Below are positions 9,462 through 58,915 of a DNA stretch of 64,000 nt, piece after piece. The position numbers and the translations under genes are program-made. The notes under the pieces were generated by a model that worked only from the letters and a program-made list of their open reading frames with translations, did not search any database and had not been told where the DNA came from. The stretch is from Pelotomaculum sp. (lineage in GTDB: Bacteria; Bacillota; Desulfotomaculia; Desulfotomaculales; Pelotomaculaceae): assembly GCA_018435055.1 (NCBI GenBank), contig JAHDOA010000035.1, positions 1 through 64,000 of the forward strand. Reading direction: 5' to 3'. Each line of letters starts with the position of its first letter. Position 1 is the stretch's first letter.

Positions 9462-9490
9462 TGAGACAAGGGGACGGTCCTTTTGTCTCA
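9462..9490. repeat. dispersed hairpin repeat, copy 1
   Basis: TGAGACAA and TTGTCTCA form a perfect 8-bp stem around a core containing GGGGACGGTCC. It is the reverse complement, with few changes, of the copy at 9963-9991, so the ArsC/Spx-like gene is flanked by an inverted pair. It lies between that gene and htpG. Confidence 0.75.
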
Positions 9491-9517: not shown

Positions 9518-9868
9518 TTATCCCTTTAGAAATCCTTCTATTTGTTCTGGTACAAACCCCACCACCAGTTTTTTGCCGTCGGTCAGCAATGGGCGGTACA
9601 TCGCTTTGGGGTTGGCGGCTAAAAATTCCGCAACCTCGCGCTCAGACAGGTCTTTGGCATTTATTTTCGCCTTTTTATAATTTGTGCTTCTTTCATTGAG
9701 CAGGCCGTTGACTCTTATACCGCCCATGCCGGCGAGTTCAAACAGTTCCGCAGTAGTGGGTGGTTCTTTAACTATGTCCCGGTAGTTATAGTCCACGCCT
9801 TTTTCCGAAAGCCACGCTTTCGCTTTGCGGCAGGTTGTTCAGGTGGGAAAACAGTAAAATTCCAGCAT
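9518..9868 (-). CDS. ArsC/Spx-like thioredoxin-fold protein, candidate selenoprotein (UGA = Sec10)
   Basis: Translating from the ATG at 9866-9868 gives an ArsC/Spx family N-terminus in which codon 10 is TGA (9839-9841), exactly where the family has the first cysteine of its CxxC site: FPT-U-TTCRKAKAWL. Cys13 is present, as is the conserved Arg in AMYRPLL near residue 92. Read through, the protein has the family's usual ~116 residues and no other stop. A GGAG ribosome site lies 12 bases before the ATG. A stem-loop starts 8 bases after the UGA and matches the bacterial SECIS pattern. Known: UxxC sites are common in prokaryotic selenoproteins. Inferred: a Sec-dependent thiol oxidoreductase or reductase; arsenate may not be the substrate. 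The alternative is a nonsense mutation, in which case only the 92-residue stretch 9518-9796 would be a frame from an internal Met. Most gene finders would truncate it there. Confidence 0.78.
9805..9841 (-). promoter_or_regulatory. candidate bacterial SECIS element with its UGA
   Basis: In the minus-strand mRNA the UGA (9841-9839) is followed by CCG-C-AAAGC / GCTTT-CGG, an 8-bp stem with one bulged C (9830-9822 and 9812-9805). The 9-base apical loop GAAAGCGTG begins with G. The loop starts 17 bases after the UGA. These features agree with the bacterial SECIS rules I know: apical loop ~16-37 bases after UGA and G among its first two bases. Confidence 0.7.
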
Positions 9869-10184
9869 GTTGGTTGATCACTCCTTGTTTGTTTTGGTGG
9901 TATAAGGAGAGGTTCCCCCTATAAAATATTCAAGGGCGGCGCCGGAGACAGTCCTCCATGAATGAGACAGAAGGACCGTCCCCTTGTTTCACTGAAAGTT
10001 TATTATTTCTAGTTCTGGCTCAAAAAATCCTCCAGGAGCGGATAAAAGCGCTGCGATAAAGATAAATATAAACTGAATTTTTTTAATCTACTATGATTAG
10101 ACTACAAATTATGGTATTTTTAAATATAGGGTAAATATTTTGCCGTGTTTATAACAAAACGACAGGAGAAGGAGGTTTTGCATA
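9869..10184. other. intergenic region between divergent genes
   Basis: 316 bases between the selenoprotein candidate (minus) and the acyl-CoA dehydrogenase (plus). It holds hairpin repeat copy 2 (9963-9991) and an AT-rich stretch from about 10075 to 10145 that probably carries the promoter of the acyl-CoA dehydrogenase operon. An AGAAGGAGG ribosome site precedes the ATG at 10185. I see no ORF or RNA gene. Confidence 0.5.
9963..9991. repeat. dispersed hairpin repeat, copy 2
   Basis: TGAGACAG, core AAGGACCGTCCCC, then TTGTTTCA; the arms pair with two G-T wobbles. It is in inverted orientation to copy 1 at 9462-9490 and together they bracket the ArsC/Spx-like gene. Confidence 0.75.
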
Positions 10185-29645: not shown

Positions 29646-30284
29646 ATGATTAACGGTTTAATTAAAGCCATAGCCAATTTGGAAGAAGAAACAACCCTCA
29701 GGCTGGTCAGAGAAAAGGTAGAGTCGGGCGAGACCCCTTTGGAGATAGTGGAACAATGCAGAAAAGGGGTCGAGATCGTCGGCAAAAGATACAGTGAAGA
29801 AATCTACTATTTATCAGATCTGATAATGTCGGAAGAGATATTCAGGGGAGTAATGGAAATCCTGGAGCCCTATTTTCCCAAGAATACCGCCCAAAAAGAG
29901 TTTAAGTTAATAATGGGCACCATTGAAGGCGACATCCATGACCTGGGGAAAAACATAGTAATAAACTTATTGCGCTCTGTCGGTTTTGAAGTCCTTGACC
30001 TTGGCGTGGACGTCCAGCCCGGGGACTTTGTCGAGTGTGTCAGAGAAACAGGCGCTTCAGTGATCGGCATATCCGTCCTGCTTACTTTTTCCATAAACTC
30101 TGTCAAAAAGGTGATAAAACTCCTGGGAGAAGCCGGCCTGCGCGACAAGGTAACTGTTGTTATCGGCGGGTACCCAATCAACGAGAGGATCAGGGAATAC
30201 ACGGGCGCCGACTATTACGAAACGGACGCTGTAAAGGCAGTGGAGTTATTCAAAAGAATTATCATGGAAAAAGAGGGTAGTTAA
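29646..30284 (+). CDS. corrinoid protein (MtaC/MtvC-like) 1
   Basis: 212 residues. The N-terminal helical cap (B12-binding-2) covers residues ~1-85. The Rossmann-like cobalamin-binding domain has the DxHxxG signature DIHDLG (residues 96-101), with His98 as lower cobalt ligand, then GFEVLDLGVDV and SVLLTFSINSVKK. It shuttles a methyl group between a substrate methyltransferase and a second methyltransferase. It lies 15 bases after gntR and is separated from the second URO-D gene by the operator region. Confidence 0.93.
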   Translation: MINGLIKAIANLEEETTLRLVREKVESGETPLEIVEQCRKGVEIVGKRYSEEIYYLSDLIMSEEIFRGVMEILEPYFPKNTAQKEFKLIMGTIEGDIHDLGKNIVINLLRSVGFEVLDLGVDVQPGDFVECVRETGASVIGISVLLTFSINSVKKVIKLLGEAGLRDKVTVVIGGYPINERIREYTGADYYETDAVKAVELFKRIIMEKEGS

Positions 30285-30301
30285 AAATTTTTGGCGATGA
30301 T

Positions 30302-30334
30302 GTATAGACAACTAGACCGATTTTTAATTATAAA
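30302..30334 (+). promoter_or_regulatory. GntR operator candidate 2 overlapping a promoter
   Basis: GTATAGACAACTAGAC (30302-30317) fits GTNTAG-N4-CTANAC. Inside it TAGACA (30305-30310) can serve as -35 with TATAAA (30329-30334) as -10 after 18 bases, so a bound regulator would block the promoter of the second methyltransferase operon. Confidence 0.65.
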
Positions 30335-30425
30335 TGCATTTCTTATAAATAATTAAGGAGGGATTTTAAATCAATATTGTGATATCGCTTTGGAAAATAT
30401 AAAACCAAAGGAGGAAAGGGGTTAT

Positions 30426-30488
30426 TTGCCGTATCGTTTTAATGTGGCTGTATTTATCTTCAGCATGGCCGGTAGGCGCAGTATCTAA
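30426..30488 (+). CDS. possible 20-residue leader peptide
   Basis: In the ~210-base leader of the methyltransferase operon an AAAGGAGGAAAGGGG site is followed by TTG 30426 and a 20-codon ORF (begins PYRFNVAVFIF, stop TAA). A second unused AAGGAGGG site occurs at about 30355. No residue bias hints at attenuation, so this may be chance. Confidence 0.2.
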   Translation: MPYRFNVAVFIFSMAGRRSI

Positions 30489-30530
30489 TTAGATGTCATT
30501 GGTATGCATAAAAAAATCGGGGGTGTATGT

Positions 30531-31904
30531 ATGTCCGAAAATATCCAACAGAAATACAATGAAAGACTAAGGCGTTATCAAGCCGCCATAGCCCTGGAGA
30601 TGCCTGACAGGATACCCATCTCGGCCGGCTCAAATTATTTTGCCGAAGTTTATGCCGGCCATACCAACCAGGAATTCATTTACGACGTTGACAAATGGAA
30701 AGAAGCCGACGTGAAATTTGTAAACGATTTTCCCGAGGTTGACGCTTTCAGATCGGGAAGGTTCTGGGGCCCTCTCCACGACGCGGTCGGTTTTAACATG
30801 TACAAGCTTCCCGGCCGGGAATTGTCTCCCCGTACCCAGTTTCAGTTTGTGGAAGGGGAAAGGATGAAGGCCGACGAGTACGACTTGCTGATTAACGACC
30901 CGGTTAATTTTCTCTTTGAAAGGTTCCTTCCGCGCACTCTGAATGACTTTAAGGAGCCGGGTTCCGCCCGCGCCAACGTAGCCCTGATTAAAGGCGCCAT
31001 GGCTTCGGCGATGCTGGGCGGATTTATGAGAAACCGTTCCATGTACCTGCAGAGTGAGCTGGGTATGCCGAATTCCATGGGGGGTGTGTTTTTAGCGCCG
31101 TTTGATTACCTGGCCGACGGGCTCAGGGGTCTCAGGGGAGTCATGCTGGACGTGCGCAGACAGCCGGACAAGATCCTGGAAGCCTGCGAGGCGCTGATCC
31201 CCGATATAGTCAACGCCGGCCTGGCCATCGCGGACCCGCTCAGGCGCAGCCCGATCTTCCTGCCCCTGCACAGGGGAGCGTTCCCGTTCCTTTCGCCCAA
31301 ACAATTTGACGAACTGTACTGGCCGTCTCTGAAAAAGACCATGCTGATGTTTATTGACGCCGGGTATACCATCAGGGCCTACCTGGAGGGCGACTGGGGC
31401 CCCAACTGGCACCATTTCCGCGAATTGCCGAAAGGCAAGGTGCTGTGTGACATTGATGTCCAGGGAGATATCTTTAAGGCCAAAGAAGACCTGGGCGGCT
31501 ACCAGTGCATCGCCGGCGGGATGCCGGATTCACTGCTGATCTTGGGCGCACCGGCTGAGGTAAAGGAAAGAGTGAAACTCTTGTGCGAGACTGTGGGCAA
31601 GGACGGCGGCTTCATTATTAACGGCGGATGCGGTATTCCTTACGACACGAAGCCGGAAAATTTCAAAGCTATGCTCGAGGCTGTACTTGAATACGGCAGG
31701 TACAGCGACACATTTGATTTTGAAATCCATATGAGCCCTACCCCGCCAGCCGGGTGGCAGCCCCCCAGGCGCAGGGTGGTCACCCCCTGGGAAGTTAAAC
31801 TGCAGGAACTGGGGGGAGTCAAAGGAGAAGAAAGCCCGATTAAGAAAAACTGGGAAATGTTAGAGCACATGGCTTTTAACTGGCTGTTCTCCTGGTTGTG
31901 GTAA
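30531..31904 (+). CDS. URO-D fold corrinoid-dependent methyltransferase (MT-I type)
   Basis: 457 residues from the ATG at 30531 (GGGGGTGT site; an ATG 27 bases upstream is less likely). Uroporphyrinogen-decarboxylase-like, but longer than URO-D enzymes, as in anaerobic demethylase components. Blocks include ALEMPDRIPISAGSNYF, GAMASAMLGGFMRN, FDELYWPSLKKTMLMF and IINGGCGIPYDTKPEN near the C-terminus. It directly precedes corrinoid protein 2 and the pterin methyltransferase, giving the classic order MT-I, corrinoid, MT-II. The substrate (methoxyaromatic, methylamine-like or other) cannot be read from sequence. Confidence 0.85.
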   Translation: MSENIQQKYNERLRRYQAAIALEMPDRIPISAGSNYFAEVYAGHTNQEFIYDVDKWKEADVKFVNDFPEVDAFRSGRFWGPLHDAVGFNMYKLPGRELSPRTQFQFVEGERMKADEYDLLINDPVNFLFERFLPRTLNDFKEPGSARANVALIKGAMASAMLGGFMRNRSMYLQSELGMPNSMGGVFLAPFDYLADGLRGLRGVMLDVRRQPDKILEACEALIPDIVNAGLAIADPLRRSPIFLPLHRGAFPFLSPKQFDELYWPSLKKTMLMFIDAGYTIRAYLEGDWGPNWHHFRELPKGKVLCDIDVQGDIFKAKEDLGGYQCIAGGMPDSLLILGAPAEVKERVKLLCETVGKDGGFIINGGCGIPYDTKPENFKAMLEAVLEYGRYSDTFDFEIHMSPTPPAGWQPPRRRVVTPWEVKLQELGGVKGEESPIKKNWEMLEHMAFNWLFSWLW

Positions 31905-31949
31905 TGCCCGGACAGAGTTTGAAATTTACTAAGCGGAAGGATGATAATA

Positions 31950-32591
31950 ATGGGTAATCTGACACAATTGGCACAGGCTCTGGTAGATCTGGATGAAGAA
32001 CTGGTCAACAAAATAGTTAAAGAAAAAATCGCCGCCGGTGAAGCGCCGCTAGATATTATTAAAGAATGCAACGAGGGCATGGGCAAAATTGGCAAGCTTT
32101 TTGAAGCCAATGAATACTACTTGAGCGAACTGATTATGTCCGGGGAAATCCTTAAGGGGGTAATGAATGAGCTGGAGCCGCTGCTGGCCAATGTTGAAAA
32201 AGAAGCGTCGACAGCCGATGTGGTGGTCATCGGGACAGTTAAAGACGATATCCATGACATCGGGAAAAACATCGTGGTGACATTGCTGAAAGGGACCGGC
32301 TTCGATGTTATCGATTTGGGAGTGGACGTCCCTGCTGAAACCTTCGTAAAAACAATTAAAGAAACAGGCGCCAGGGTACTTGGCCTCAGCGCGCTGCTCA
32401 ACTTTACCTTCCCCGCCATGAAGGAGGTTGTGGATCAGCTTGCCGCCGCCGGGCTGCGCGACCAGGTTAAGGTGATTATCGGCGGCGCGCCGTGCAATGA
32501 AGAGGTCCGCCAGTTTACCGGGGCCGATTATTTGGCGAAAGACGCCGCCACAGGTGTCAATATCTGCAAAGAGATATTTGGAAAGTGTTAA
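31950..32591 (+). CDS. corrinoid protein (MtvC/MtaC-like) 2
   Basis: 213 residues from the ATG at 31950, preceded by AAGGA at good spacing. It has the same layout as the protein at 29646: helical cap, then DIHDIG (residues 100-105, His102 as cobalt ligand), GFDVIDLGVDV and LGLSALLNFTFP. The two copies are clearly homologous but not near-identical, so they may serve different methyltransferases. Being between MT-I and the pterin methyltransferase, this one is the likely methyl carrier of that operon. Confidence 0.93.
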   Translation: MGNLTQLAQALVDLDEELVNKIVKEKIAAGEAPLDIIKECNEGMGKIGKLFEANEYYLSELIMSGEILKGVMNELEPLLANVEKEASTADVVVIGTVKDDIHDIGKNIVVTLLKGTGFDVIDLGVDVPAETFVKTIKETGARVLGLSALLNFTFPAMKEVVDQLAAAGLRDQVKVIIGGAPCNEEVRQFTGADYLAKDAATGVNICKEIFGKC

Positions 32592-32602
32592 CATGACAAA
32601 GA

Positions 32603-32637
32603 GGAGACCAGCCGGCTTTAATGGCTGGTTGGTCTCC
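32603..32637 (+). other. intra-operon hairpin
   Basis: GGAGACC-AGCC pairs with GGCT-(GGTT-free bulge)-GGTCTCC (32603-32613 with 32623-32637). There is no T-run. It could stabilise the upstream message or partly attenuate read-through into the pterin methyltransferase. Confidence 0.5.
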
Positions 32638-32673
32638 GGTTAATGTCTAATAATCAAGGCGGAGGACATATAG

Positions 32674-33525
32674 ATGGAAACCAGACTTGCTAGCGCAAAC
32701 AAGGAACTGTTCATCAGCGCCGACAGGCCGACCACCCTGATCGGCGAGCGGATTAATCCCACCGGCAAAAAAAAGCTGGCCGCAGCTCTGCAGAGCGGCG
32801 TATATGATGAGATCGTGCGCCGCGAGGCAAGGGAGCAAGTAGCCGCGGGCGCCCACATGCTGGATGTTAATGTCGGCGCGGGCGGCGTCGATGAGGTCGC
32901 CTTACTGCCTGAAGTAGTAAAAACCGTGATGGACGAGGTGGATGTCCCCCTCTGCATCGATAGCGGCAACCCCTATGCTATTGAAGCGGCGCTCAAGGTA
33001 TACAAGGGCAAGCCTCTGATTAATTCAGTTAGGGGAGAAGGGCATTCGCTACAGACTGTCCTGCCCCTGGTAAAAGAATACGGCGCGGCTGTCATTGTCC
33101 TGCCGCTGGACCAGAAGGGCATTCCTAACAACGCTGAGGACAGGATGCAAATAGCCGACCGGATTGTGGAGCAATGTGTAAAAACGGGTATACCGTTAGA
33201 GGACATCGTAATTGATTGCCTGGCCCTTTCCGTGGGAGTGGACAGCAATGCCGGGCTGGTTACCCTGGAGACAATCAAACGGGTAAAAGAAAATTATGGC
33301 GTCAACATAACCCTGGGGGCAAGCAATATCTCCTTCAGCCTGCCGGGGCGGGAAGCAGTCAACGACGCTTTTTTAAGCATGGCCATAGCCGCAGGTGTTA
33401 CCTGCCCCGTGGTAAATGCCGCCAAAGCCCGCAAATGCGCCCAGGCCACGGATTTGCTCCTGGGCCGGGATAAATTTGCCCTGCGCTATATCAAATATTA
33501 CAGGCAGAATAAAGAGCTGTTTTAA
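32674..33525 (+). CDS. corrinoid:tetrahydrofolate methyltransferase (MtvA/AcsE-like)
   Basis: 283 residues with a pterin-binding TIM barrel: TTLIGERINPTGKKKL, AHMLDVNVG, PLCIDSGNPYAIEAAL, LINSVRGEG, VIDCLALSVGVD and LGASNISFSLPGR. It moves a methyl group between the cobalt of a corrinoid protein and N5 of tetrahydrofolate. In this operon the direction is probably from methyl-corrinoid to THF, giving methyl-THF for the C1 enzymes downstream. AcsE of acetyl-CoA synthesis belongs to the same family, but no CODH/ACS genes are present here. Confidence 0.9.
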   Translation: METRLASANKELFISADRPTTLIGERINPTGKKKLAAALQSGVYDEIVRREAREQVAAGAHMLDVNVGAGGVDEVALLPEVVKTVMDEVDVPLCIDSGNPYAIEAALKVYKGKPLINSVRGEGHSLQTVLPLVKEYGAAVIVLPLDQKGIPNNAEDRMQIADRIVEQCVKTGIPLEDIVIDCLALSVGVDSNAGLVTLETIKRVKENYGVNITLGASNISFSLPGREAVNDAFLSMAIAAGVTCPVVNAAKARKCAQATDLLLGRDKFALRYIKYYRQNKELF

Positions 33526-33553
33526 ATAGCCCGTCTAATTTTTAATTGTCGCA

Positions 33554-33569
33554 GTATAGACAACTAGAC
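33554..33569. promoter_or_regulatory. GntR operator candidate 3 (upstream of fhs)
   Basis: GTATAGACAACTAGAC is identical over 16 bases to the site at 30302. It lies 31 bases before the fhs start. I could not place a convincing -35/-10 around it; it may act as a roadblock or overlap an atypical promoter. Confidence 0.65.
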
Positions 33570-33599
33570 TAATTTCCGGGTATGGAAGGAAGAAAAATA

Positions 33600-35360
33600 G
33601 TGACCTATGACGCTACAAAACTAAAGGATTACCAAATTGCCGAAGCAGCGGAAAAAAACATGCCCACACCCGCGCAGTGGCAGGAAAAGCTGGGTCTGGA
33701 AAGGGATGAAGTGATCCCCTACGGCAGGATCTGCAAGCTTGATTTTATTAAAATAGCCGATCGCCTGAAAAACAGGCCCGACGGCAAATACATCAACGTG
33801 ACAGCGATTACCCCCACCCCGCTGGGTGAAGGTAAAACCACCACTACCATTGGGCTGGTGGAGGGGCTGGGCAAGCGCGGCAAGCATGCCGGCGCCGCTA
33901 TCCGCCAGCCCTCCGGCGGACCCACTATGAATATTAAGGGGACCGCAGCCGGCGGCGGCAATGCCCTGGCCATACCGATGACTGAATTTTCCCTCGGGCT
34001 GACCGGCGACATTAACGACATCATGAATGCCCACAACCTGGGCATGGTCGCCCTTAACGCCCGGATGCAGCATGAGAGGAACTACGACGACGCTGAGCTG
34101 GCCAGGCGCGGCTTGCGGCGGCTCGACATCGACCCCACCAACGTGCGCATGGGCTGGGTTATCGATTTTTGCGCCCAGGGCCTGCGCAAGATCATCATGG
34201 GCATCGGCGGCAGGATGGACGGCTATATGATGGAATCAAATTTCAACATCGCCGTAAGTTCCGAACTAATGGCCATACTTGCCGTGGCGACGGATTTAAA
34301 AGACCTGAGAGACAGGATCGGCAAAATAATCGTGGCTTATGACAAGAAGGGTAACCCGGTGACCACGTCAGATTTGGAAGTCGCCGGCGCCATGGCTGCC
34401 TTTATGCGCAACGCTATTAACCCCACCTTGATGAGCACCGTTGAATACCAGCCCGTACTGGTCCACGCCGGCCCCTTCGCCAATATTGCGATCGGCCAGT
34501 CCTCCATCATCGCCGACCGCATCGCCCTGAAGATGTTTGATTACAACGTGACCGAAAGCGGCTTTGCCGCCGACATCGGGTTTGAAAAGTTCTGGAACGT
34601 AAAGTGCCGTTTTAGCGGCCTGACGCCCAACGTCTCCGTGATTACAGCTACGATCAGGGCGCTTAAGATGCACGGCGGCGGCCCCCGGGTGGCGCCAGGC
34701 CGCTCCCTGCCCGACGAGTATGCCAGGGAAAACCTGGAGCTGCTGGAAAAAGGCGTAGCCAATCTGCAGCACCATATCGCCACCGTGAAAAAATCCGGGA
34801 TTAAACCAGTTGTTTGTATCAACGCCTTCAGCACCGACACCAGGGAGGAAATTGCCATGGTACGCCGCTATGCCGAGCAGGCCGGCGCCCGCTGCGCGCT
34901 TTCCGAGCACTGGCTAAAAGGAGGAGAGGGCGCTCTTGAGCTGGCCGACGCCGTTATCGACGCCTGCTGCGAAAAAACGGACTTCAGGTACCTTTACCCC
35001 ATGGAAATGCCGTTGCGGCAGAGGGTCGAAACAATCGCCAGGGAGGTTTACGGCGCGGCCGGAGTATCCTGGACAGCGGAGGCGGAAGAAAAGGCCAGGC
35101 GTTTTGAGGCTGACCCCGCCTATGCGGATTTTGCTACCATGATGGTGAAAACCCACCTGAGCCTTACCCATGACCCCGCCCTCAAAGGGGTACCCGCAGG
35201 CTGGATTCTGCCTGTCCGCGACGTGCTGGTTTTTGCCGGCGCCCGGTTCCTGTGCCCCATGACAGGCTGTATCAGCCTGATGCCCGGCACGGGTTCGGAT
35301 CCCGCTTACCGCAGAATAGATATTGACACAACTACCGGTAAAGTGCTTGGCCTTTTCTAA
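33600..35360 (+). CDS. fhs: formate-tetrahydrofolate ligase
   Basis: 586 residues from GTG 33600, chosen because GGAAGGAAG is 7 bases upstream. ATG 33582 would leave the Shine-Dalgarno inside the gene. The P-loop [40 protein letters not shown] and a C-terminal [14 protein letters not shown] block are diagnostic. It ligates formate to THF with ATP; in reverse, formyl-THF yields ATP and formate. The protein is some 25 residues longer than the usual ~557-560, partly through an N-terminal extension. It heads a C1 operon running to fchA. Confidence 0.97.
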
Positions 35361-35409
35361 GCAGGTAAATATACCGGCCATGCGGAATTAGTTGTTTGGA
35401 GGTAACCAA

Positions 35410-37356
35410 ATGAGCAAATATATACCGCCATGCGCCAACGCTTGTCCAGTAAACACAGATGTGCGGGGCTATCTGGCCGCAATTGCCAGGCAGGATTATG
35501 CGGAAGCCTGCCGCCTGATCAGCGCCAACAACCCCTTTCCCTCGGTATGCGCCTGGGTGTGCCCCCATCCCTGCGAAGACAGCTGCCGGAGGGCCGCTGT
35601 CGACAGCGCCCTGTCCATACGCAATCTGAAAAGGTTTGCTGTGGAAACCGCAGGCCCCCCGGATAACCGGGACGCCGCGCCGGTCAACAAAACAGGCAAA
35701 AAGGTGGCCGTCGTGGGAGCGGGTCCCGGCGGGCTTACTGCCGCCTATGATCTGGCCAGGCAGGGACACGCTGTGGTAGTTTACGAAAAAAACAACGGCC
35801 TGGGCGGGCATTTTTTGACTTCGTTGCCGGTGTACCGCCTGCCCAGGGAGATGCTCAAAAGAGATACAGATAAGATACTGGCAGCCGGAGTCGAAGTTCG
35901 TACCGGGGTTGAGGTCGGGAAAGACATAACCATCGCCCGGCTCAGAGACCAGTATGACGCCCTGGTCATAAGCGTCGGCCTTTCCAGCAGCAAAAGCCTG
36001 CCCCTGCCGGGCGCCGGCCGTCCAGGCGTAATCATGGCCCTGCCCTTTTTGCATAAAGCCAATATAGGAGAGAAGCAGGCAATCGGCAGCAGCGTCCTGG
36101 TGATCGGCGGCGGCGACGTGGCCATGGATGTAGCCCGCACAGCCGTGCGCCTCGGCGCCGCACAGGTAAAAACAATCTGCCTGGAATTTCGCGACCAGAT
36201 GCCCGCCCATGAATGGGAGGTAGAGGAGGCGCTTGATGAGGGCGTCGTCCTCATCAACGGTTACGGGCCGGTGGAAATACTGAGCTGTGATGATCAAATC
36301 ACAGGCCTCAAGGCACAAAAGGTAAAATCCGTCTTTGACCGGGAGGGGAGATTCAGCCCCGTCTTCCAGCCCGGCGAGTTCTTAATCATACCGTGCGATA
36401 CGGTAATCCAGGCCGTCGGCCAGGCGCCCGATAACAGCTTCTTAAACGGGAGCGGCCTGGCCGTCAACTCCAGGGGCGGGATCGTGACAGATAAGGATAC
36501 CATGACAACTAGCGTGCCGGGCGTCTTTACCTGCGGCGAAATCGTCAACGGGCCGGGACCCGCCATTGCCGCCGTGGCCTCAGGTCACCGGGTGGCGGAG
36601 CTGGTAAACAGCTTTTTAAGCGGCGCGCCGGCAGCCTGCCCTGAAATAATAGAAATAATTGGCCCTCTGCCGGCAAAAGTGATAAAATTAATTCCCGTAC
36701 AAAGCCGCCGGAAAATGCCGGCGTCAGCCCCGGCGGTCAGAAAAAACAATTTTCTGCCTTATGAACTGGGATTCGATGAAAAGTCAGCCCTGTATGAAGC
36801 CGGCCGTTGTCTCAGCTGCGGGCTGGGAGCGCAGGTGGACCCGGAAAAATGTGCCGCCTGCCTGACCTGCCTGAGGGTCTGCCCCTATCAGGCGCCGGTT
36901 GTCGGTGGTTTGGCCGGTATACCCCCGGAGGGATGCCAGGCCTGCGGCGTCTGCGCCGCTTTTTGCCCCGCTGACGCCATCTCGGTGGAAAACCTGGACA
37001 TGGGTATTATTAAAAACACGCTGGACGCTGTTTCGGGAGAAACCGGCCTGGTTATATTTGCGGGCCGGGATACTTACCATGATGTTTTAGCAGGGGCGCT
37101 GCAGAATAAAGCGCCTGACCTGAAAACCGCTACCGCCATAGTCCTGCCCACAGCCGGCGCGCTTCGGCTCGAATGGATTCTGGGCGCGTTTGAAAACGGC
37201 GCCGCGGCGGTGGCCATAGTGCAGGATAAAAAAGGGAGCCGTCACGCCGTCAGCGACCAGTTTCTCAAGGCCTTGATCACCCGCGCCCAAAATTTGCTCG
37301 AGGCTGCCGGCATACCCGGCGCAAACCTTTCTTACCACATCTTGGAGGAAGATTGA
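35410..37356 (+). CDS. GltD-like flavoprotein fused to two [4Fe-4S] ferredoxin motifs and an MvhD-like tail
   Basis: 648 residues from ATG 35410 (TTTGGAGG site). Residues ~1-85 are the GltD/NfnB N-terminal Fe-S domain (CANACPVNTDVRGYL; CAWVCPHPCEDSCRR). FAD site: VVGAGPGGLTAAYDLA. NAD(P) site: VIGGGDVAMDVARTA. EIVNGPGPAIAAVASG closes the GltD part. Residues ~465-530 carry two ferredoxin motifs (CAACLTCLRVCP; CQACGVCAAFCP). The last ~110 residues (VLPTAGALRLEWILGAFENG onwards) resemble MvhD, the hydrogenase/Hdr linker subunit, but without its cysteines. Placed before metV and metF, it is a candidate electron donor or acceptor for methylene-THF reductase. The MvhD likeness is from memory. Confidence 0.8.
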   Translation: MSKYIPPCANACPVNTDVRGYLAAIARQDYAEACRLISANNPFPSVCAWVCPHPCEDSCRRAAVDSALSIRNLKRFAVETAGPPDNRDAAPVNKTGKKVAVVGAGPGGLTAAYDLARQGHAVVVYEKNNGLGGHFLTSLPVYRLPREMLKRDTDKILAAGVEVRTGVEVGKDITIARLRDQYDALVISVGLSSSKSLPLPGAGRPGVIMALPFLHKANIGEKQAIGSSVLVIGGGDVAMDVARTAVRLGAAQVKTICLEFRDQMPAHEWEVEEALDEGVVLINGYGPVEILSCDDQITGLKAQKVKSVFDREGRFSPVFQPGEFLIIPCDTVIQAVGQAPDNSFLNGSGLAVNSRGGIVTDKDTMTTSVPGVFTCGEIVNGPGPAIAAVASGHRVAELVNSFLSGAPAACPEIIEIIGPLPAKVIKLIPVQSRRKMPASAPAVRKNNFLPYELGFDEKSALYEAGRCLSCGLGAQVDPEKCAACLTCLRVCPYQAPVVGGLAGIPPEGCQACGVCAAFCPADAISVENLDMGIIKNTLDAVSGETGLVIFAGRDTYHDVLAGALQNKAPDLKTATAIVLPTAGALRLEWILGAFENGAAAVAIVQDKKGSRHAVSDQFLKALITRAQNLLEAAGIPGANLSYHILEED

Positions 37357-37407
37357 TTTAAAAGCATGGCTGACCAGGGCCAAATACAGGACAAGGGGTA
37401 ATGCCAC

Positions 37408-37974
37408 ATGGTGGACAGTAAGAAAATCAGGGCCGCGGTGAAAATGATCCTGGAGGCTATCGGCGAGGACCCCCAAAGGGAGGGTTTGAAAGAAACCCCC
37501 GCCCGGGTGGCCCGCATGTATAAAGATATATTCTCCGGTCTGGCTGAGGATCCGGAAAAGCACCTGTGCAAGAAATTTACCGAAGACCACGACGAAATGG
37601 TGCTGGTTAAAGATATACCCCTGTATTCCATGTGTGAACACCACTTGCTTCCTTTTTACGGCATGGCGCACATTGCCTATATCCCCAAAAACGGGAAAGT
37701 TACCGGCCTCTCCAAGCTGGTCAGGGTAATGGAGGGATTTGCCCGGCGGCCGCAGCTGCAGGAAAAACTGACTTCACAAATTGCCGACGCTATTGTAAAA
37801 GGCCTGGACCCGCACGGTGTTATGGTAATCATTGAGGCCGAGCACATGTGCATGACCATGCGGGGAGTGCGCAAGCCCGGTTCCCGTACTGTTACCTCCG
37901 CCGTCAGGGGGCTTTTTGAGAGGAGTGTGGCCACCAGGGCCGAAGCCTTGCAGTTAATCAAGGGCAAGCATTAA
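37408..37974 (+). CDS. folE: GTP cyclohydrolase I
   Basis: 188 residues. Zinc and active-site motifs: [13 protein letters not shown] (Cys and His ligands), [24 protein letters not shown] and [12 protein letters not shown] with the third ligand Cys. It makes dihydroneopterin triphosphate from GTP, the first step to folate. Its place inside a THF-using C1 operon suggests that cofactor supply is co-ordinated with C1 flux. Confidence 0.97.
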
Positions 37975-38041
37975 GTCAGTTGACTATATAAAAAAAACAC
38001 CCGGGATGTCTGAAATTAAATCCGCAAAGGAGAAGGAACGC

Positions 38042-38713
38042 TTGATAAAAGCTCAGCAAAAGGATATAAGGGAAATAGCGGAGATGGTCGTGGATTGCCA
38101 CAAGGTGCTGCTGGCGGGCTGCGGCGGCTGTGTCACCGTATGCCTGGCGGGCGGCGAACAGGAAACAAAAATAATGGCCGGCGCCCTGCGGCTGATCAGG
38201 AGGCGCTCCGGCAGGCCCCTGGAAACCTTGACCTGCGTGCCCACCAGACAATGCGAGCCGGAGTTTCTCCAGCCCCTGGATGAACTGGTCAAAGACGTTG
38301 ACGCTGTAATTTCCCTGGCCTGCGGCGTTGGAGTACAGTACCTGGCTGAAAGGTACCGGGACAAATGGGTAGTGCCGGCTCTGGACACAGTGTTCGCCGG
38401 CGGGACAAAAACGCCCGGCGTATGGGAAGAGAAATGCGGGCTTTGCGGCGACTGTATACTGCATCAGACCGGGGGGATCTGTCCGGTAATACGCTGTGCA
38501 AAAAGCATACTAAACGGTCCCTGCGGCGGCTCGCAAAACGGCAAGTGCGAGCTCGGGCAGGATGTGGACTGCGCCTGGCAGTTGATTTATGACCGCATGA
38601 AGACCCTGGGGAGGTTGTCTGAACTAACTGCTGTCCAGCCGCCCAAGGACTGGTCAAAATCAAGGGACGGCGGCCCCCGCAGGTTGACCAGAGAGGAATT
38701 GATCACCCCATGA
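38042..38713 (+). CDS. metV: MetV, zinc/Fe-S partner of methylene-THF reductase
   Basis: 223 residues from TTG 38042, preferred over ATG 38006 because AAAGGAGAAGG lies just upstream and the resulting start (MIKAQQKDIREI) matches how MetV proteins usually begin. CGGCVTVC follows near residue 30. The C-terminal Cys cluster (CGLCGDC, GGICPVIRC, NGPCGGSQNGKCE) is that of the methylene-THF reductase C-terminal family. MetV binds MetF and is thought to pass electrons to its flavin. The ATGA overlap with metF confirms the pairing. Confidence 0.92.
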   Translation: MIKAQQKDIREIAEMVVDCHKVLLAGCGGCVTVCLAGGEQETKIMAGALRLIRRRSGRPLETLTCVPTRQCEPEFLQPLDELVKDVDAVISLACGVGVQYLAERYRDKWVVPALDTVFAGGTKTPGVWEEKCGLCGDCILHQTGGICPVIRCAKSILNGPCGGSQNGKCELGQDVDCAWQLIYDRMKTLGRLSELTAVQPPKDWSKSRDGGPRRLTREELITP

Positions 38714-39639
38714 CTTATCTGAGCAAGCTTCATAAAACACTGGAAGACGGGCATTTCGCCGTTACTGCTGAAATAGGGCCGCCCAAGCACGCGTCGGCGC
38801 AGGGCCTCAGGCGCCATGCCCGAATGCTGGGGAGCAGTGTGGACGCCGCCAACATAACCGACTGCCAGACCGCCATAGTGCGGCTTTCCAGCATCGCCGC
38901 CGGCGTGCACGTCCTCAGCTGCGGGGTTGAGCCGATTGCCCAGATGACTTGCCGGGACAGGAACCGCATCGCCATCCAGGCCGACCTTTTGGGGGCATAC
39001 AGCCTGGGCCTGCGCAACCTGCTCTGCCTTTCCGGCGACCACCAGAAATTCGGCAACCACCCGGCTGCGAGAAATGTCTATGACCTGGATTCAGTCCAGC
39101 TAATCAGCCTGGTGCGCAGGATGCGCGACGAAAGCAAGTTTTTTTGCGGAGAAGAGATTAAAGAAAACCAGCCGGCGTTTTATATCGGCGCCGTGGCCAA
39201 CCCCTTCGCCGACCCCTTTGAATTCAGGGTTGACCGGCTGGAGAAAAAAATCAAGGCCGGGGCGCAATTCATCCAGACTCAGTGTGTCTTTGACCTGGAG
39301 CGCTTTGAGCGTTTCATGGAGTTGGTCAGGGCCAGGGGCCTGGACCAGAGGGCGCACATTCTGGCCGGGGTCACCCCGCTGAAGAGCTGGCGCGCTGCCA
39401 GGTATCTGCAGACCGGCGTATCCGGGATGAGCGTGCCGGAAGCCCTGGTGGAAAGGCTGAAAAAGGCGGCAGACCCCAAAAAAGAAGGGGCGGCGGTATG
39501 CGTTGAACAGATCAGGTACATCAAGGAAAACATCAAAGGGGTACACGGCGTCCATATCATGGCCATCGCCTGGGAAGAGATCGTCCCTGAAATTGTGGAA
39601 CAGGCCGGGCTGGCGCCACGGCCGGCAACAGGCAATTGA
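38710..39639 (+). CDS. metF: methylenetetrahydrofolate reductase
   Basis: 309 residues, TIM-barrel MTHFR: FAVTAEIGPPKHAS, ANITDCQTAIVRLSS, PIAQMTCRDRNRIA, NLLCLSGDH, GAVANPFADP, KAGAQFIQTQCVFD and LAGVTPLKS. It interconverts methylene-THF and methyl-THF on FAD. In acetogens this enzyme works with MetV and varying electron partners. Here the flavoprotein-ferredoxin fusion at 35410 is in the same operon. With methyl-THF supplied by the methyltransferases upstream, it could run in the oxidative direction. Confidence 0.95.
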   Translation: MTYLSKLHKTLEDGHFAVTAEIGPPKHASAQGLRRHARMLGSSVDAANITDCQTAIVRLSSIAAGVHVLSCGVEPIAQMTCRDRNRIAIQADLLGAYSLGLRNLLCLSGDHQKFGNHPAARNVYDLDSVQLISLVRRMRDESKFFCGEEIKENQPAFYIGAVANPFADPFEFRVDRLEKKIKAGAQFIQTQCVFDLERFERFMELVRARGLDQRAHILAGVTPLKSWRAARYLQTGVSGMSVPEALVERLKKAADPKKEGAAVCVEQIRYIKENIKGVHGVHIMAIAWEEIVPEIVEQAGLAPRPATGN

Positions 39640-39666
39640 ACCAGCAGCTCATGTGAAGGATATAAT
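39636..39666 (+). promoter_or_regulatory. weak promoter candidate before folD
   Basis: TTGAAC (39636-39641) and TATAAT (39661-39666) are 19 bases apart, in the 112-base gap between metF and folD. Spacing is longer than usual, so folD and fchA may have their own weak promoter or simply be read from fhs. Confidence 0.3.
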
Positions 39667-39751
39667 AATAAAGAATCGCTCAAAACTTCGCCCGCAGGCT
39701 GTGTTGAATAGAGGACAGCGGGCCGGGTAATAAATAAGGAGATCGTTATAA

Positions 39752-40606
39752 ATGTCAAAGATTATCGATGGTAAATCAGTTGCGGCGGCAGTCCGGGAAG
39801 AGATTAAGGCGGAAATGGCCGGCCTTAAGGAAGAGGGTATTACTCCTAAAATGGCTATTATTATGATCGGGGACGATCCGGCTTCGGCATTTTACTCCCG
39901 ATCCATCGAAAAAGCCTGCATCAACGCCGGCGCCTTATCCGAGAAGTTTTCCTTTAACGGCGCCGGTGATGAGGAAGAGGTCGTCGCTGTCCTGCAAAAG
40001 CTCAACAAAGACAGCAGTGTCCACGGGATTATGATTATGCTGCCGCTGCCCAGGGGGATTAACAAACAGAGGATCCTGGAGGCTGTCTCACCTTTAAAGG
40101 ATTTAGACGGGGTACACCCGCTCAACCGTGCTTATAATCTCAGTAATAACGAAGGACTGTTCCCTTCCACGCCCCAGAGTTGTATAGAAATATTGCGGCG
40201 CAACGGCATATCAATTGAAGGAAAGCATGCTGTTCTGGTAGGCCGGGGAGAGTCGGTGGGCAAGCCATTGATCTATATGATGCTGAACCAGAATGCCACG
40301 GTGACTGTTTGCCATTCCAAAACCAGTGATCTGGCTCATCATACCCGCCAGGCCGACATTCTCATCGCTGCTGTGGGAAAACCAAAAATGATCACAGCTG
40401 AAATGGTAAAGCCGGGCGCGGTGGTGGTTGATGTTGGGATTAACGAGACTGAGGACGGCGGCTTATGCGGGGATGTCGATTTTGAAAACGTGCTGGCGGT
40501 AGCCGGCGCTGTTACCCCTGTGCCGGGCGGTGTCGGCAGCCTGACCACAGCGCTTATTTTAAAAAATCTGCTTAAAGCAATAGAGCTGGGCAAGAAAATA
40601 TCTTAA
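39752..40606 (+). CDS. folD: bifunctional methylene-THF dehydrogenase/methenyl-THF cyclohydrolase
   Basis: 284 residues. Family blocks: MAIIMIGDDPASAFYSRSIEKA (active-site Tyr and Lys), GIMIMLPLPRGINKQRIL, LKDLDGVHPLNRAYNL, VLVGRGESVGKPL (NADP loop) and TPVPGGVGSLTTALIL. It interconverts methylene-THF, methenyl-THF and formyl-THF. With fchA next door, the cyclohydrolase step may be shared. A TAAGGAG ribosome site precedes ATG 39752. Confidence 0.96.
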   Translation: MSKIIDGKSVAAAVREEIKAEMAGLKEEGITPKMAIIMIGDDPASAFYSRSIEKACINAGALSEKFSFNGAGDEEEVVAVLQKLNKDSSVHGIMIMLPLPRGINKQRILEAVSPLKDLDGVHPLNRAYNLSNNEGLFPSTPQSCIEILRRNGISIEGKHAVLVGRGESVGKPLIYMMLNQNATVTVCHSKTSDLAHHTRQADILIAAVGKPKMITAEMVKPGAVVVDVGINETEDGGLCGDVDFENVLAVAGAVTPVPGGVGSLTTALILKNLLKAIELGKKIS

Positions 40607-40657
40607 TATTATGTTATAAGGGAGGCTAAGGCCTAAAAGGAAAGGAATGTTATCAGC

Positions 40658-41293
40658 ATGAGCGATATATTTGATTACTCATTCAGGAAGATACTGGCTA
40701 TCTCTGCATCCGATGCGCCCACCCCGGGGGGGGGCGGCGTTTCCGCCCTGGCCGGCGCGCTGGGTACGGCTATGGCGGCCATGGTGGGTAACCTGACCCT
40801 GGGCAGGCCCAGGTATGCGGATGTAGAGGCTGAAGCGCGGGATGTCACCGGCAGGGCTTATTGGATCATGGCCGAACTGGAAAAATTAATGGCTGCGGAT
40901 ATGGCGGCCTTCAGTAAGTTAATGGACGCTTACAGGCTGCCCAGAAGCAATGAGGCGGAAAAAGCGAGGCGCGGAGAGGCAGTGCGGGATGCGGCCAAAG
41001 AAGCCGCCAGGGTACCCCTGGATATCGCGGAAACACTCCTTGAAGCGCTGGTCATAACGGAGAAAATATCCCGGATCGGCAACAAAATGGCCATCAGCGA
41101 CGCCGGGGTGGCGGCTTACATCTGTGAAGCGGCCCTGCAAGCGGTTTTGCTCAATGTCGATATAAATGTCACGGTGATCAATGACCCGGATTTTGTGGCG
41201 GGGGCAAATAAAAGAAGAAATGAAATTGCCGGCGAGGCCGGGCGGCTCAGGGATATGGCCCTGGTTGCGGTAAAGGAAAGAATGTCCGGATAA
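40658..41293 (+). CDS. fchA: cyclodeaminase/cyclohydrolase family protein (FchA)
   Basis: 211 residues, all helical. The N-terminal DAPTPGGGGVSALAGALGTAM is the signature of the formiminotransferase-cyclodeaminase family, followed by MVGNLTLGRP and ISDAGVAAYICEAALQAVLLNV. In C1 operons FchA serves as methenyl-THF cyclohydrolase. It lies 51 bases after folD and ends the C1 operon. Confidence 0.93.
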   Translation: MSDIFDYSFRKILAISASDAPTPGGGGVSALAGALGTAMAAMVGNLTLGRPRYADVEAEARDVTGRAYWIMAELEKLMAADMAAFSKLMDAYRLPRSNEAEKARRGEAVRDAAKEAARVPLDIAETLLEALVITEKISRIGNKMAISDAGVAAYICEAALQAVLLNVDINVTVINDPDFVAGANKRRNEIAGEAGRLRDMALVAVKERMSG

Positions 41294-52041: not shown

Positions 52042-52917
52042 ATGCTGCAGGATTACCTGTTTCCGGAAACTATCAGTGAGGCTGTTTCCTTTTTGCAAAA
52101 CAATGAAGGACAGGCAAGAATAATTGCCGGCGGCACCGACCTGCTGCTGGATATCCCGGAAGGCAAGGTCAAAACAAATTGCCTGGTCGATATCAACCGC
52201 ATCTCTGAACTGAAAAAAATCACCATGGAGGACGGCGTGATATATATTGGGGCGGCGGTCACCCACAACCAGGTGGCGGGCTCTGAGCTTATCCAGGAAA
52301 AGGCGGCTGCCCTGGCCTGCGCCGCAAGTTGCGTCGGTTCCCATCAGGTCAGGAATTCAGCGACCGTAGCCGGCAACGTCTGCAATGCCCAGCCTGCCGC
52401 AGACACTGCTGTAGCGCTGGTAGCGCTTGGCGCAACCGTGGAGATAGCTACTCCCGACGGTACGCAGTATGCGCTGGTGGAAAAAACGTATGCCGGGGTG
52501 GGCAAGTCCACCATTGACAGCACCTGCCAGTTGGTGACCAGGGTAAGCTTCCCGGCTGCCCGGAAAAATCAGGGGACAGCCTTTGTGCGTCTCCATCAGC
52601 GCAATGCGCTGGCTCTGCCTATGCTGAACGTGGCGGTCATGGTAGAGCTGGCGGGCGGCCGGTTCAAGTGGGCACGTATTTGTATGGCGCCAGTTGGCCC
52701 CGGCCCGATGCGCGCGTTAAGCGCGGAACAGGCTTTAAAGGATGCCGAAATCACCCCGGAAGTAATTGAAAAAGCGTCCCGGGCCGTGTTGGAGCATGCC
52801 AACCCCAGAAACAGCGCGCTCAGGGGTTCCAAGGAATACCGTACTTCAGTACTGCCCGTGCTGGTAAGAAGAGCCCTGGAACAGGCTGTCGCCAACGCCG
52901 GCGGCACATGTAATTAA
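52042..52917 (+). CDS. molybdenum hydroxylase FAD subunit (XdhB/CoxM-like)
   Basis: 291 residues. The FAD-binding blocks IIAGGTDLLLD and HQVRNSATVAGNVCNAQPAAD are characteristic, followed by a CO dehydrogenase flavoprotein C-terminal domain (ALPMLNVAVMVELAG). It transfers electrons from the Fe-S subunit to an acceptor. GGAGGAGG precedes the ATG. It belongs to a three-subunit hydroxylase with the next two genes. Confidence 0.93.
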   Translation: MLQDYLFPETISEAVSFLQNNEGQARIIAGGTDLLLDIPEGKVKTNCLVDINRISELKKITMEDGVIYIGAAVTHNQVAGSELIQEKAAALACAASCVGSHQVRNSATVAGNVCNAQPAADTAVALVALGATVEIATPDGTQYALVEKTYAGVGKSTIDSTCQLVTRVSFPAARKNQGTAFVRLHQRNALALPMLNVAVMVELAGGRFKWARICMAPVGPGPMRALSAEQALKDAEITPEVIEKASRAVLEHANPRNSALRGSKEYRTSVLPVLVRRALEQAVANAGGTCN

Positions 52918-52935
52918 TACAGGAGGAGGTAAACT

Positions 52936-53415
52936 ATGAACCTGAAAATCCTTAAATTCACACTTAACGGGGAGCCGATAGAAATAACTGTTTCTCCTGA
53001 TGATATGCTTGTTGACGTATTAAGAGACAAACTTGAACTAACCGGAACAAAAAAAGGATGCGGTAAGGGAGAATGCGGCGCCTGTACGGTAATTATCAAC
53101 GGTGAGGCCGTCAATTCCTGCCTGGTTCCCGCTATGAAGACTATGGGCGCCAATGTGGAGACCATTGAGGGTATAGGCAGCCCGGAGAAATTTCACCCGG
53201 TGCAGGAGGCCTTTATGGACCTGGGCGCCATCCAGTGTGGTTTTTGCACGCCGGGCATGATTATGTCCGCAAAAGCGCTGCTGGACAAAACAACCAGCCC
53301 GACCAGCAAAGAGATTAAGCGGTCTCTTTCTGGTAACATTTGCCGTTGCACGGGCTATGTGAAAATTGAGGAAGCGGTGCAGGCGGCTGCTGAAAAGATG
53401 AGAGAAAAACAGTAA
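52936..53415 (+). CDS. molybdenum hydroxylase [2Fe-2S] subunit (XdhC/CoxS-like)
   Basis: 159 residues. Two [2Fe-2S] clusters: the plant-type GCGKGECGACTVIINGE with NSC after it, and the helical-domain cluster QCGFCTPGMIM plus NICRCTGY. It carries electrons from the molybdenum site to the FAD subunit. It sits between the FAD and molybdopterin subunit genes with short gaps. Confidence 0.96.
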   Translation: MNLKILKFTLNGEPIEITVSPDDMLVDVLRDKLELTGTKKGCGKGECGACTVIINGEAVNSCLVPAMKTMGANVETIEGIGSPEKFHPVQEAFMDLGAIQCGFCTPGMIMSAKALLDKTTSPTSKEIKRSLSGNICRCTGYVKIEEAVQAAAEKMREKQ

Positions 53416-53428
53416 AGGAGGGGGCAGC

Positions 53429-55765
53429 ATGAAAGAATACAAAGTTATTGGGCAAAGTGTAAGAAGGCTGGACGCGGTAGAAAAGGCTACAGGAACAGCG
53501 GGATTTACCAGCGATATGAAATTGCCGGGTATGCTTTATGGCAAAGTGCTGCGCAGCCCGCACCCGCATGCCCGGATAGTTGGCATTGACACGTCTGAGG
53601 CGGAAAAACTGCCCGGAGTGAAGGCGGTAGCTACTTATAAAAATACACCGAGGGAATTATTTAATACATCCGCCACTATGACCTTTACTGTGCCTCCCAT
53701 GCTACCGGTGCTGGACCAGTATATTTTCGACAATGTGGTGCGTTATGTAGGCGATGAGGTGGCGGCTGTCGCCGCTACCAGCGAAAAAATTGCCGAGGCG
53801 GCCCTGGGGTTGATCAAGGTCGAATACGAACTCCTGCCCGCAGTTTATGACCCGAAGGAAGCCTTGACTCCTGGGGCGCCTGTAATTCACGAGAGTGAAA
53901 AAAAGAATATTCCCGGTGAGATTATTCAAATACCGTATGGCGATGTGGACAAGGGTTTTACTGAATCCGATATAATCATTGAAAAGGAGTTCAAGCTTCC
54001 GGTACAAAAACAAGCCCAGATGGAAACCCAGGCCGCCGTGGCTCAGGTGGGGCTGGACGGGAAAATAACGGTCTGGTCTACAACCCAGACGCCGCACCCG
54101 ACAAAAATGATCCTATCCAAAGTGTTCAGTATTCCCGAGAGCAAAATCAGGGTCCTTAACCCGCCTTATATCGGTGGTGGTTTCGGAGTTAGAATTGGCT
54201 GCAGCGCCAAAGCCGAACCAATTGCGGTAGCGCTGTCCATGCTGGCTAAAAAGCCTGTCAAAGTAGTTTACAGCAGAAAAGAAGATTTTATTGCTTCGGA
54301 CACCCGCCATGGCGGTTATGTGTCGGTAAAGCTGGGCGCTAAAAAAGACGGCGCCTTCCATGCCATGTATCTAAAAGCGACCTTGAACGGCGGCGCATAC
54401 TGCAGTTTCAGCGTCGAGACACCCGGCGTGCTTGGCTGCATGGGTTTGGCGGTTTACCGCGTCCCCAACCAGTTATATTACGGTCACAGTGTCTATACTA
54501 ACACTACCCCAGCGGGAGCGATGCGCGGTTTCGGCAACCCGCAGGCGATGTACGCCATTGAGTCAGTTGTGGACATGATGGCGGAAAAGCTGGGCATGGA
54601 TCCGCTGAAGTTGCGCCTGAAGAACATTATGCAGGTCGGAGACCCCTGGGTTCTTCCTTATAGGTGTGGTTCTACCGGTCTGGCTGAATGCATTGAAAAA
54701 GGCGCCAAAAGTATCGGTTGGGAAAACCGCGGCAAGTTAAATAAACCCGGCGCCAGGAAATTAAGGGGCATCGGCATGGGGGTTGGCACCCACGTCAGTA
54801 ACGCCTGGCCCTTTTGCGGCGATTACGACAATGCCTATATCACTGTACAGCAGGACGGTTCCGTGCACCTGGCCAGCGGCGTTCCCGATATGGGGACAGG
54901 CACCAGCACTTCGCTGCCGCAGCTGGTCGCTGAAGTGGTTGGTGTCGGTCTTGACCAGGTCAGCATGACGTTTGCGGATACGGCTTCGACCCCGTTCGAT
55001 ATCGGCAGCCACGCCAGCCGGACCCTGTACGCCGCCGGCACAGCGGTTGTTGAGGCGGCCAGGGACGTTAGAAAGCAGGTCCTTGAGTATGCCGCTGACT
55101 TGTTTAAAGTAGCGCCGGAAAGATTAGTCCTGCAGGACGGGGTCATATCCGCGGCCAGCCAGGATGCCGGCGCTGTTGGCGACAACTGTTCGGGCGCCCC
55201 GGTATGTAAAATTGGCGGGGTGGAAAAGAAAAGCATAACATTAAAAGAGCTGGCTTATGACGCGCACCTGCGCAACAAGCAGTTTATCGGCGTGGGGCGG
55301 ATAGTGCCTGATAACGCTCCCCCATGGCACGCCCATTTTGCCGAGGTGGAGGTCGACACCGAATTATGTCAGGTCAGAGTGCTTAAAGTTGCCGCAGTGC
55401 ACGACGTCGGTAAAGCCATCCATCCGGTAATTTGTGAAGGACAGATTGAGGGTGGTGTTCTGCAGGGCATTGGTTACGCGCTGAGCGAAGAAATAAAATA
55501 CGATGAAAAAGGCCGGCAATTAGAAAACAGTTTCCACAAGTACATGCTGCTGACCGCTGACGACGTGCCGGAAATTGAGGCGATGCTCGTCGAGTCAAAC
55601 GATCCCACCGGACCTTTCGGCGCTAAAGGTGTCGGTGAATGCGGCCTTGTGCCGACGGCGCCCGCCATCGTCAACGCCATTTATGACGCTACCGGGATCA
55701 GGTTCTATGAGATTCCGGTCACCGAAGAGAAAATATTCAAGGCTTTAAAGGAACACGTTAAGTAG
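53429..55765 (+). CDS. molybdenum hydroxylase large subunit (xanthine dehydrogenase family)
   Basis: 778 residues, normal for the molybdopterin subunit. QTQ-like, IGGGFGVRIG and AGAMRGFGNPQAMYAIE motifs contact the cofactor, and the catalytic Glu is in FGAKGVGECGLVPTAPAI near the end. Substrates in this family include purines, nicotinate and other N-heterocycles. The presence of yqeB and yqeC downstream suggests a selenium-dependent enzyme with a labile Se ligand. There is no in-frame UGA, consistent with Se being in the cofactor, not Sec. Confidence 0.93.
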   Translation: MKEYKVIGQSVRRLDAVEKATGTAGFTSDMKLPGMLYGKVLRSPHPHARIVGIDTSEAEKLPGVKAVATYKNTPRELFNTSATMTFTVPPMLPVLDQYIFDNVVRYVGDEVAAVAATSEKIAEAALGLIKVEYELLPAVYDPKEALTPGAPVIHESEKKNIPGEIIQIPYGDVDKGFTESDIIIEKEFKLPVQKQAQMETQAAVAQVGLDGKITVWSTTQTPHPTKMILSKVFSIPESKIRVLNPPYIGGGFGVRIGCSAKAEPIAVALSMLAKKPVKVVYSRKEDFIASDTRHGGYVSVKLGAKKDGAFHAMYLKATLNGGAYCSFSVETPGVLGCMGLAVYRVPNQLYYGHSVYTNTTPAGAMRGFGNPQAMYAIESVVDMMAEKLGMDPLKLRLKNIMQVGDPWVLPYRCGSTGLAECIEKGAKSIGWENRGKLNKPGARKLRGIGMGVGTHVSNAWPFCGDYDNAYITVQQDGSVHLASGVPDMGTGTSTSLPQLVAEVVGVGLDQVSMTFADTASTPFDIGSHASRTLYAAGTAVVEAARDVRKQVLEYAADLFKVAPERLVLQDGVISAASQDAGAVGDNCSGAPVCKIGGVEKKSITLKELAYDAHLRNKQFIGVGRIVPDNAPPWHAHFAEVEVDTELCQVRVLKVAAVHDVGKAIHPVICEGQIEGGVLQGIGYALSEEIKYDEKGRQLENSFHKYMLLTADDVPEIEAMLVESNDPTGPFGAKGVGECGLVPTAPAIVNAIYDATGIRFYEIPVTEEKIFKALKEHVK

Positions 55766-58123: not shown

Positions 58124-58910
58124 GGGGGCCGGGGACCTGGCTACGGGCTGTGCCTGGCGCCTCCGGCAGAGTGGGTTTTATGCGCTCATGACTGAATTGC
58201 CGCAGCCTCTGGTGATAAGGCGAACGGTGGCCTTTGCGGAGGCAGTCTACGCGGGTTCAATGGTGGTAGAAGGGGTAGAGGCAGTCCTGGCAGAAAATAC
58301 GGAGAATGCCCTGCAATTGTTGAAAACAGGCAGGATACCGGTGCTTGTGGATCCGCAGGCCGCAGTGGTAAGTCAAATAAAGCCGGTGGCTTTTATTGAC
58401 GCGGTGATGGCGAAAAGAAACACCGGTACCAAAATAAACGACGCCCCCCTGGTCGTCGGTCTGGGGCCGGGATTCACCGCCGGTGTGGATGTCCACGCGG
58501 TGGTTGAAACAAAGAGGGGGCATAACCTGGGCCGGGTTTTATATCAGGGGGAAACTGCTCCAGACACTGGTGTGCCCGGTGAGATTATGGGCTTTGCGGC
58601 TGAAAGGCTTTTAAGGGCACCGGCTGATGGAGTGATTGAGCCATGGCGCAATATCGGTGACCCGGTGAAAAAGGGGGAAACAATAGTTTTTGTCGGAGGT
58701 ATCCCGGTGCAGGCAAAAGTTTCAGGTGTCGTCAGGGGTATGATCAGGGCGGGTGTATGGGCGTCAGCAGGGATGAAAATAGGCGATATCGACCCGCGGG
58801 GTATTAAAGAATATTGCTGCAGTATATCAGATAAAGCCCTTGCCGTGGGCGGCGGTGTGCTGGAAGCCGTATGCGGTTATTATTTCGGCAAAGGGCAGAA
58901 AAGGAATTAA
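58083..58910 (+). CDS. yqeB: YqeB, selenium-dependent molybdenum hydroxylase maturation protein
   Basis: 275 residues if started at GTG 58083; the family start VVIKGAGDLATGCAWRL lies ~10 codons further, so TTG 58110 is possible. Conserved blocks are GAGDLATG, TELPQPLVIRRTVAFAEAVY, VDARMAKRN-like FIDAVMAKRNTG and VGLGPGFTAGVDVHAVVETKRGH. YqeB and YqeC mark bacteria that use selenium as a labile cofactor in molybdenum hydroxylases. It overlaps the XdhC-like gene by 41 bases. Confidence 0.9.
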   Translation: MNILRCAGRLVVIKGAGDLATGCAWRLRQSGFYALMTELPQPLVIRRTVAFAEAVYAGSMVVEGVEAVLAENTENALQLLKTGRIPVLVDPQAAVVSQIKPVAFIDAVMAKRNTGTKINDAPLVVGLGPGFTAGVDVHAVVETKRGHNLGRVLYQGETAPDTGVPGEIMGFAAERLLRAPADGVIEPWRNIGDPVKKGETIVFVGGIPVQAKVSGVVRGMIRAGVWASAGMKIGDIDPRGIKEYCCSISDKALAVGGGVLEAVCGYYFGKGQKRN

Positions 58911-58915
58911 TTCAT

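Follow-up and report, generated by a model that had tools for sequence, protein, structure and literature searches.

Selenoproteins of the ArsC type have been described on several occasions. Members with a UxxS motif are known from the Sargasso Sea (PMC1088965), and ArsC-like selenoproteins were found in two genomes (PMC1794560). The GOS survey of 2008 lists 'Arsenate reductase 2', a set of 42 UxxC sequences assigned to cd03032 (PMC2398784), and a catalogue from 2022 contains an 'arsenate reductase-like protein' of COG1393, again with UxxC (PMC9312934). In a 2006 table for Desulfotomaculum reducens, an ArsC-like selenoprotein is not among the entries. Our literature search for a Spx-like selenoprotein found none; cd03032 is the Spx subfamily of ArsC.

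A gene of this general kind is present in the window analysed here, a stretch of 64,000 nucleotides from Pelotomaculum sp. (contig JAHDOA010000035.1, positions 1 to 64,000). As UxxC proteins of the ArsC type were already catalogued (PMC2398784, PMC9312934), the novelty initially attributed to the gene was overstated; the kind is known and the window protein adds to it. The previously catalogued proteins belong to the same COG and Pfam family, have Sec as the first residue of UxxC and commonly have Cys homologues, a likeness of family and motif only. While they come from marine metagenomes or other sources, the clade of the window protein is from Bacillota and differs by one additional Cys, located four residues ahead of Sec. 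What is added is a well-supported clade of ArsC/Spx selenoproteins with the motif C-x3-U-x2-C, which occurs in many Bacillota families.

The gene is located at 9518-9868 on the minus strand and has 117 codons, including the stop codon TAA (9520-9518). The sole internal stop is a TGA at codon 10 (9841-9839), after which the frame is open up to the TAA. Coordinates, strand and frame as given in an earlier note on this DNA are correct. When read through the TGA, the selenoprotein has 116 residues and begins with MLEFYCFPTUTTCRKAKAWL... Cys6 (codon 9851-9853, minus), four residues ahead of Sec, is conserved across the FYC..U..C clade. Cys13 (9830-9832, minus) is the presumed resolving Cys of UxxC, and Arg92 (9593-9595, minus) is the invariant anion-binding Arg of the family, for which a role in Spx has been described (PMC2801614). 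The ribosome site that had been noted before the ATG exists as a Shine-Dalgarno-like AAGGAG (9881-9886, minus), but its spacing of 12 nt is rather long. Genus mates carry GGAGG-type sites at the homologous start and closer to it, and because of these the ATG is probably right.

We have little doubt that this gene encodes a selenoprotein and that the UGA at codon 10 is read as Sec. Sec insertion itself we infer from the conserved UGA, the coding constraint, the Sec machinery, the covariation in a SECIS-like hairpin and the family to which the protein belongs. Ribosomes would decode UGA codon 10 as selenocysteine, with SelB and Sec-tRNA supplying it and a hairpin 23 nt downstream directing the insertion. 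The expected product, 116 residues long, is of the ArsC/Spx sequence type and has C-x3-U-x2-C as its active site.

UGA is normally a stop, and the gene might be a pseudogene or might yield a product without the active site that starts at GTG 9796, as an ORF of 92 aa, the longest without recoding, follows from there. Decayed fragments of the gene do occur elsewhere (L018, L022). One of these two partial copies is from another genus and covers only residues 84-114; the other is a second, broken copy in a genus mate, covering residues 20-61 with a TAA inside. However, in the case of the window gene, divergent relatives have a TGA at this very codon, between identical flanks (MLxFYCFPT..TTC), and it is followed by a region under strong purifying selection. 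In addition, the codons upstream of the TGA and the start site are conserved, and SelA co-occurs with the UGA form. A true stop is thus very improbable, and its pseudogene version is ruled out by the conservation of the TGA and by dN/dS. It had been proposed that automatic annotation would cut the gene to an internal Met. The start without recoding would be the GTG instead, while the predicted loss of the active site would indeed occur in any pipeline that treats UGA as a stop.

Homologues were taken from a genome sample in which draws are not independent. Each of the five other species covered from the genus has the TGA at this codon, in proteins that are 64-77% identical, and so do two loci from public contigs (L024, L025). 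The sample also comprised 398 genomes of the phylum, in which the 14 top-ranking matches other than the gene itself (36-56% identical) have exactly one TGA each, and the first Cys form ranks beneath these 14. The UGA-form clade is spread across many families of the Bacillota, and every parsed member has the motif C-x3-U-x2-C. In comparisons with genus mates, dN/dS past the TGA is about 0.12-0.22 and third positions absorb most of the changes, by which measure the codons past the TGA are under purifying selection. Thus, homologues have Cys where the window gene has its in-frame UGA, and the sequence to either side is conserved, a pattern that the note had proposed to look for by alignment.

The exchange between UGA and Cys, which was also to be looked for, occurs between closely neighbouring species. 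A second clade of the family contains proteins from two congeneric species, one with CYPKCTTC (L016) and the other with CYPKUTTC (L017). The two proteins are otherwise near-identical and syntenic, and are encoded beside an ORF that resembles carbamoyl-phosphate synthase (a name based on reading its sequence). In a tree of 52 proteins, computed with the focal column masked, the distribution of U and C requires four changes, compared to 13.2 with shuffled labels. A further group (families f4, f7 and f9, and one from f1) has the motif U-x-T-V and has kept Sec while the second Cys is lost. This suggests that Sec, rather than a Sec/Cys pair, is what selection keeps in this group. The L016/L017 pair and the U-x-T-V sister clade provide natural material for the question why Sec is chosen.

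The same genome carries the genes for selenocysteine insertion, selA, selB, selC and selD, for which a check had been suggested. A tRNA-Sec with anticodon UCA scores 71.9 bits and is also detected by ARAGORN. The profile matches for selA (616.6 bits) and selB (367.6 bits) are about 40 bp apart on one contig (C49), and selD (L072) scores 396.2 bits. The selD gene is itself a selenoprotein gene, with a UGA in its active site (SAGUAAK). All 18 genomes with the UGA form have a SelA above the cut-off, compared to 4 of 20 with the Cys form (Fisher p 2.2e-7, to be taken as a guide since species are not independent). Together with the conserved UGA, the U/C exchange and the covariation described below, these genes support the reading as a candidate selenoprotein.

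The genes yqeB (58062-58907, plus strand; TIGR03309, 364 bits) and yqeC (58871-59671, plus strand; TIGR03172, 171 bits), which had been taken to point to selenium use, are both present in the window. They mark the selenium-cofactor trait and not the recoding of UGA. An XdhC-like gene adjoins them and subunits resembling xanthine dehydrogenase are encoded at 52042-55762; the region is a cluster for a molybdenum hydroxylase with selenium cofactor.

Downstream of the UGA, a hairpin with the features of a bSECIS upper stem-loop is found at 9806-9822 (minus strand; CGAAAGC-GUG-GCUUUCG). It has 7 bp and -12.7 kcal/mol, and its apical loop GUG (9815-9813) is 23 nt past the UGA, which agrees with the bSECIS rules of PMC13188914. 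Among 21 sequences of the clade, three of the seven pairs show compensatory changes on both sides (C-G to G-C, G-C to A-U, A-U to U-G). The covariation score is above that of every slid register and was reached by none of 500 shuffles. Upon shuffling of synonymous codons, the mean z was -1.29 for 36 UGA forms and +0.13 for 15 Cys forms; the UGA forms fold better than expected while the Cys forms do not. Taken alone, the hairpin of the window is only modestly stable (whole-region z -1.60; p 0.03 in the gene-level shuffle). An Rfam search with the element matched no family. The U-x-T-V clade has its loop 20 nt past the UGA, with GGA or GAA as the usual sequence.

The earlier note had described a stem-loop with a 9-nt loop that starts 17 nt after the UGA. 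A SECIS-like hairpin is indeed backed by the covariation and by the synonymous shuffles, but the register with the GUG loop at 23 nt is the better one. The 9-nt-loop register shows 92% pairing but not a single two-sided change, and the best window fold that contains this loop has -9.6 kcal/mol, compared to -16.2 kcal/mol for the best one with the GUG loop. RNAalifold selected part of the 9-nt-loop register, with a covariation term of almost zero. As the 5' arm is repeated (AAAGCGAAAGCG), the RNA may switch between the two registers.

Translation of the TGA as a residue gives a protein that matches PF03960 (ArsC) over its full length with 69.7 bits (cut-off 24, E 2.6e-19). The Spx/MgsR model TIGR01617 is also matched over the full length (87.1 bits, cut-off 75.05), and the ORF is intact over the length of the family, as had been claimed, except for the one internal TGA. 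In a gap-free alignment, U10 and C13 coincide with the two cysteines of CxxC in the Spx chain 3l78, and the TGA was correctly placed by the note at the first redox Cys. The matches place the predicted protein among the UxxC selenoproteins of COG1393/PF03960. A second PF03960 protein was not found in the genome, so that the window gene is the only member of the family. The best-scoring solved relative is 3gkx, a 'putative ArsC family related protein' (E 1.1e-17, residues 4-111), which has Cys where the window protein has Sec. The model ArsC_rel_Se_1 (NF041106) likewise describes selenoproteins of the ArsC family in which Sec takes the place of the catalytic Cys, but with 30.5 bits against a subfamily cut-off of 85 the window protein is not a member. 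An AlphaFold prediction from the single sequence without an alignment was of low confidence (pLDDT 51.7) and was discarded.

On balance, we favour a stand-alone cytosolic selenol/thiol oxidoreductase that is not a canonical Spx, with the redox function predicted from motif and family. Sec10 would attack a substrate, oxidised or anionic, that Arg92 holds in place, the adduct would be resolved by Cys13 (perhaps Cys6), and re-reduction by thioredoxin would follow; nucleophile, resolving residue, substrate and electron donor are all presumed roles. An enzyme rather than a Spx is indicated by the Arg at residue 52, by the missing C-terminal tail, by the UxTV relatives and by the absence of another PF03960 gene from the genome.

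The similarity to Spx of Bacillus subtilis (PDB 1z3e, 3gfk, 7f75) extends over the full length and includes CxxC/UxxC at 10-13 as well as Arg60 and Arg92, which align with positions used by Spx. Together with the TIGR01617 match above the cut-off, this would fit a redox-switch transcription regulator that binds the alpha-CTD of RNA polymerase when U10-C13 is oxidised. However, Spx needs Gly52 for binding of RNA polymerase, and a G52R exchange in B. subtilis Spx disrupts the binding of the alpha-CTD (PMC2801614). The window protein has Arg at residue 52, and it ends at residue 116, so that the C-terminal tail of Spx is absent. For the residue comparison, the register of G52 was checked on 3l78. 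Three Spx-specific models (NF002459, NF009210, NF009885) remain far below their cut-offs (84.3 of 123, 64.7 of 159 and 62.4 of 152), and Arg60 is replaced by Lys in some genus mates. The argument from R52 is valid for the genus of the window and not for the whole clade, because a few distant UGA-form relatives (L041, L044) have Gly at this place.

We consider such a regulator quite unlikely, and the name that the NCBI model would assign, 'Spx/MgsR family RNA polymerase-binding regulatory protein', is likely to mislead here. Speculative and decidedly doubtful is a global redox sensor that is switched by a U10-C13 selenenylsulfide and contacts its partner through a surface other than that around Gly52. 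If this were true, it would be the only Spx-type protein of the genome.

An oxidoreductase could also be a dedicated reductase for arsenate, or for a selenate-like oxyanion, with Sec as the nucleophile. The protein belongs to the ArsC fold family, Arg60 and Arg92 are aligned, and related ArsC-type selenoproteins have been named arsenate reductases (PMC1088965, PMC2398784). However, the arsenate reductase equivalog TIGR00014 gives only 48.2 bits (cut-off 106.05), Arg60 varies within the clade, and the neighbouring genes code for Hsp90, HIT, GyrI-like, metallo-hydrolase and acyl-CoA dehydrogenase proteins, with no gene of ars type among them. We therefore regard this specialisation as unlikely and retain the more general oxidoreductase. 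No operon partner that hints at a substrate was found at the locus. The gene neighbourhood was rejected as a guide to function, as the adjacency of htpG is limited to the window and two genus mates in the neighbourhood comparison.

The selenoprotein gene is flanked by two copies, in opposite orientation, of a palindromic repeat (GACAAGGGGACGGTCCTTTTGTCTC; 9466-9490, plus strand, and 9963-9987, minus strand). There are about 40 copies in the genome, often paired, either inverted or in clusters. Within one of the clusters (L087) lies an ORF whose sequence resembles a REP-associated tyrosine transposase, and for this reason the repeats look like a REP/RAYT system.

Elsewhere in the window (29646-41290), the genes for two corrinoid proteins flank a 466-aa ORF that matched no NCBIfam model. 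The corrinoid genes are followed by those for methyltetrahydrofolate methyltransferase, formate-THF ligase and other folate C1 enzymes. The region is a candidate methyl-transfer cluster, and the 466-aa ORF is a candidate for an unnamed methyltransferase.
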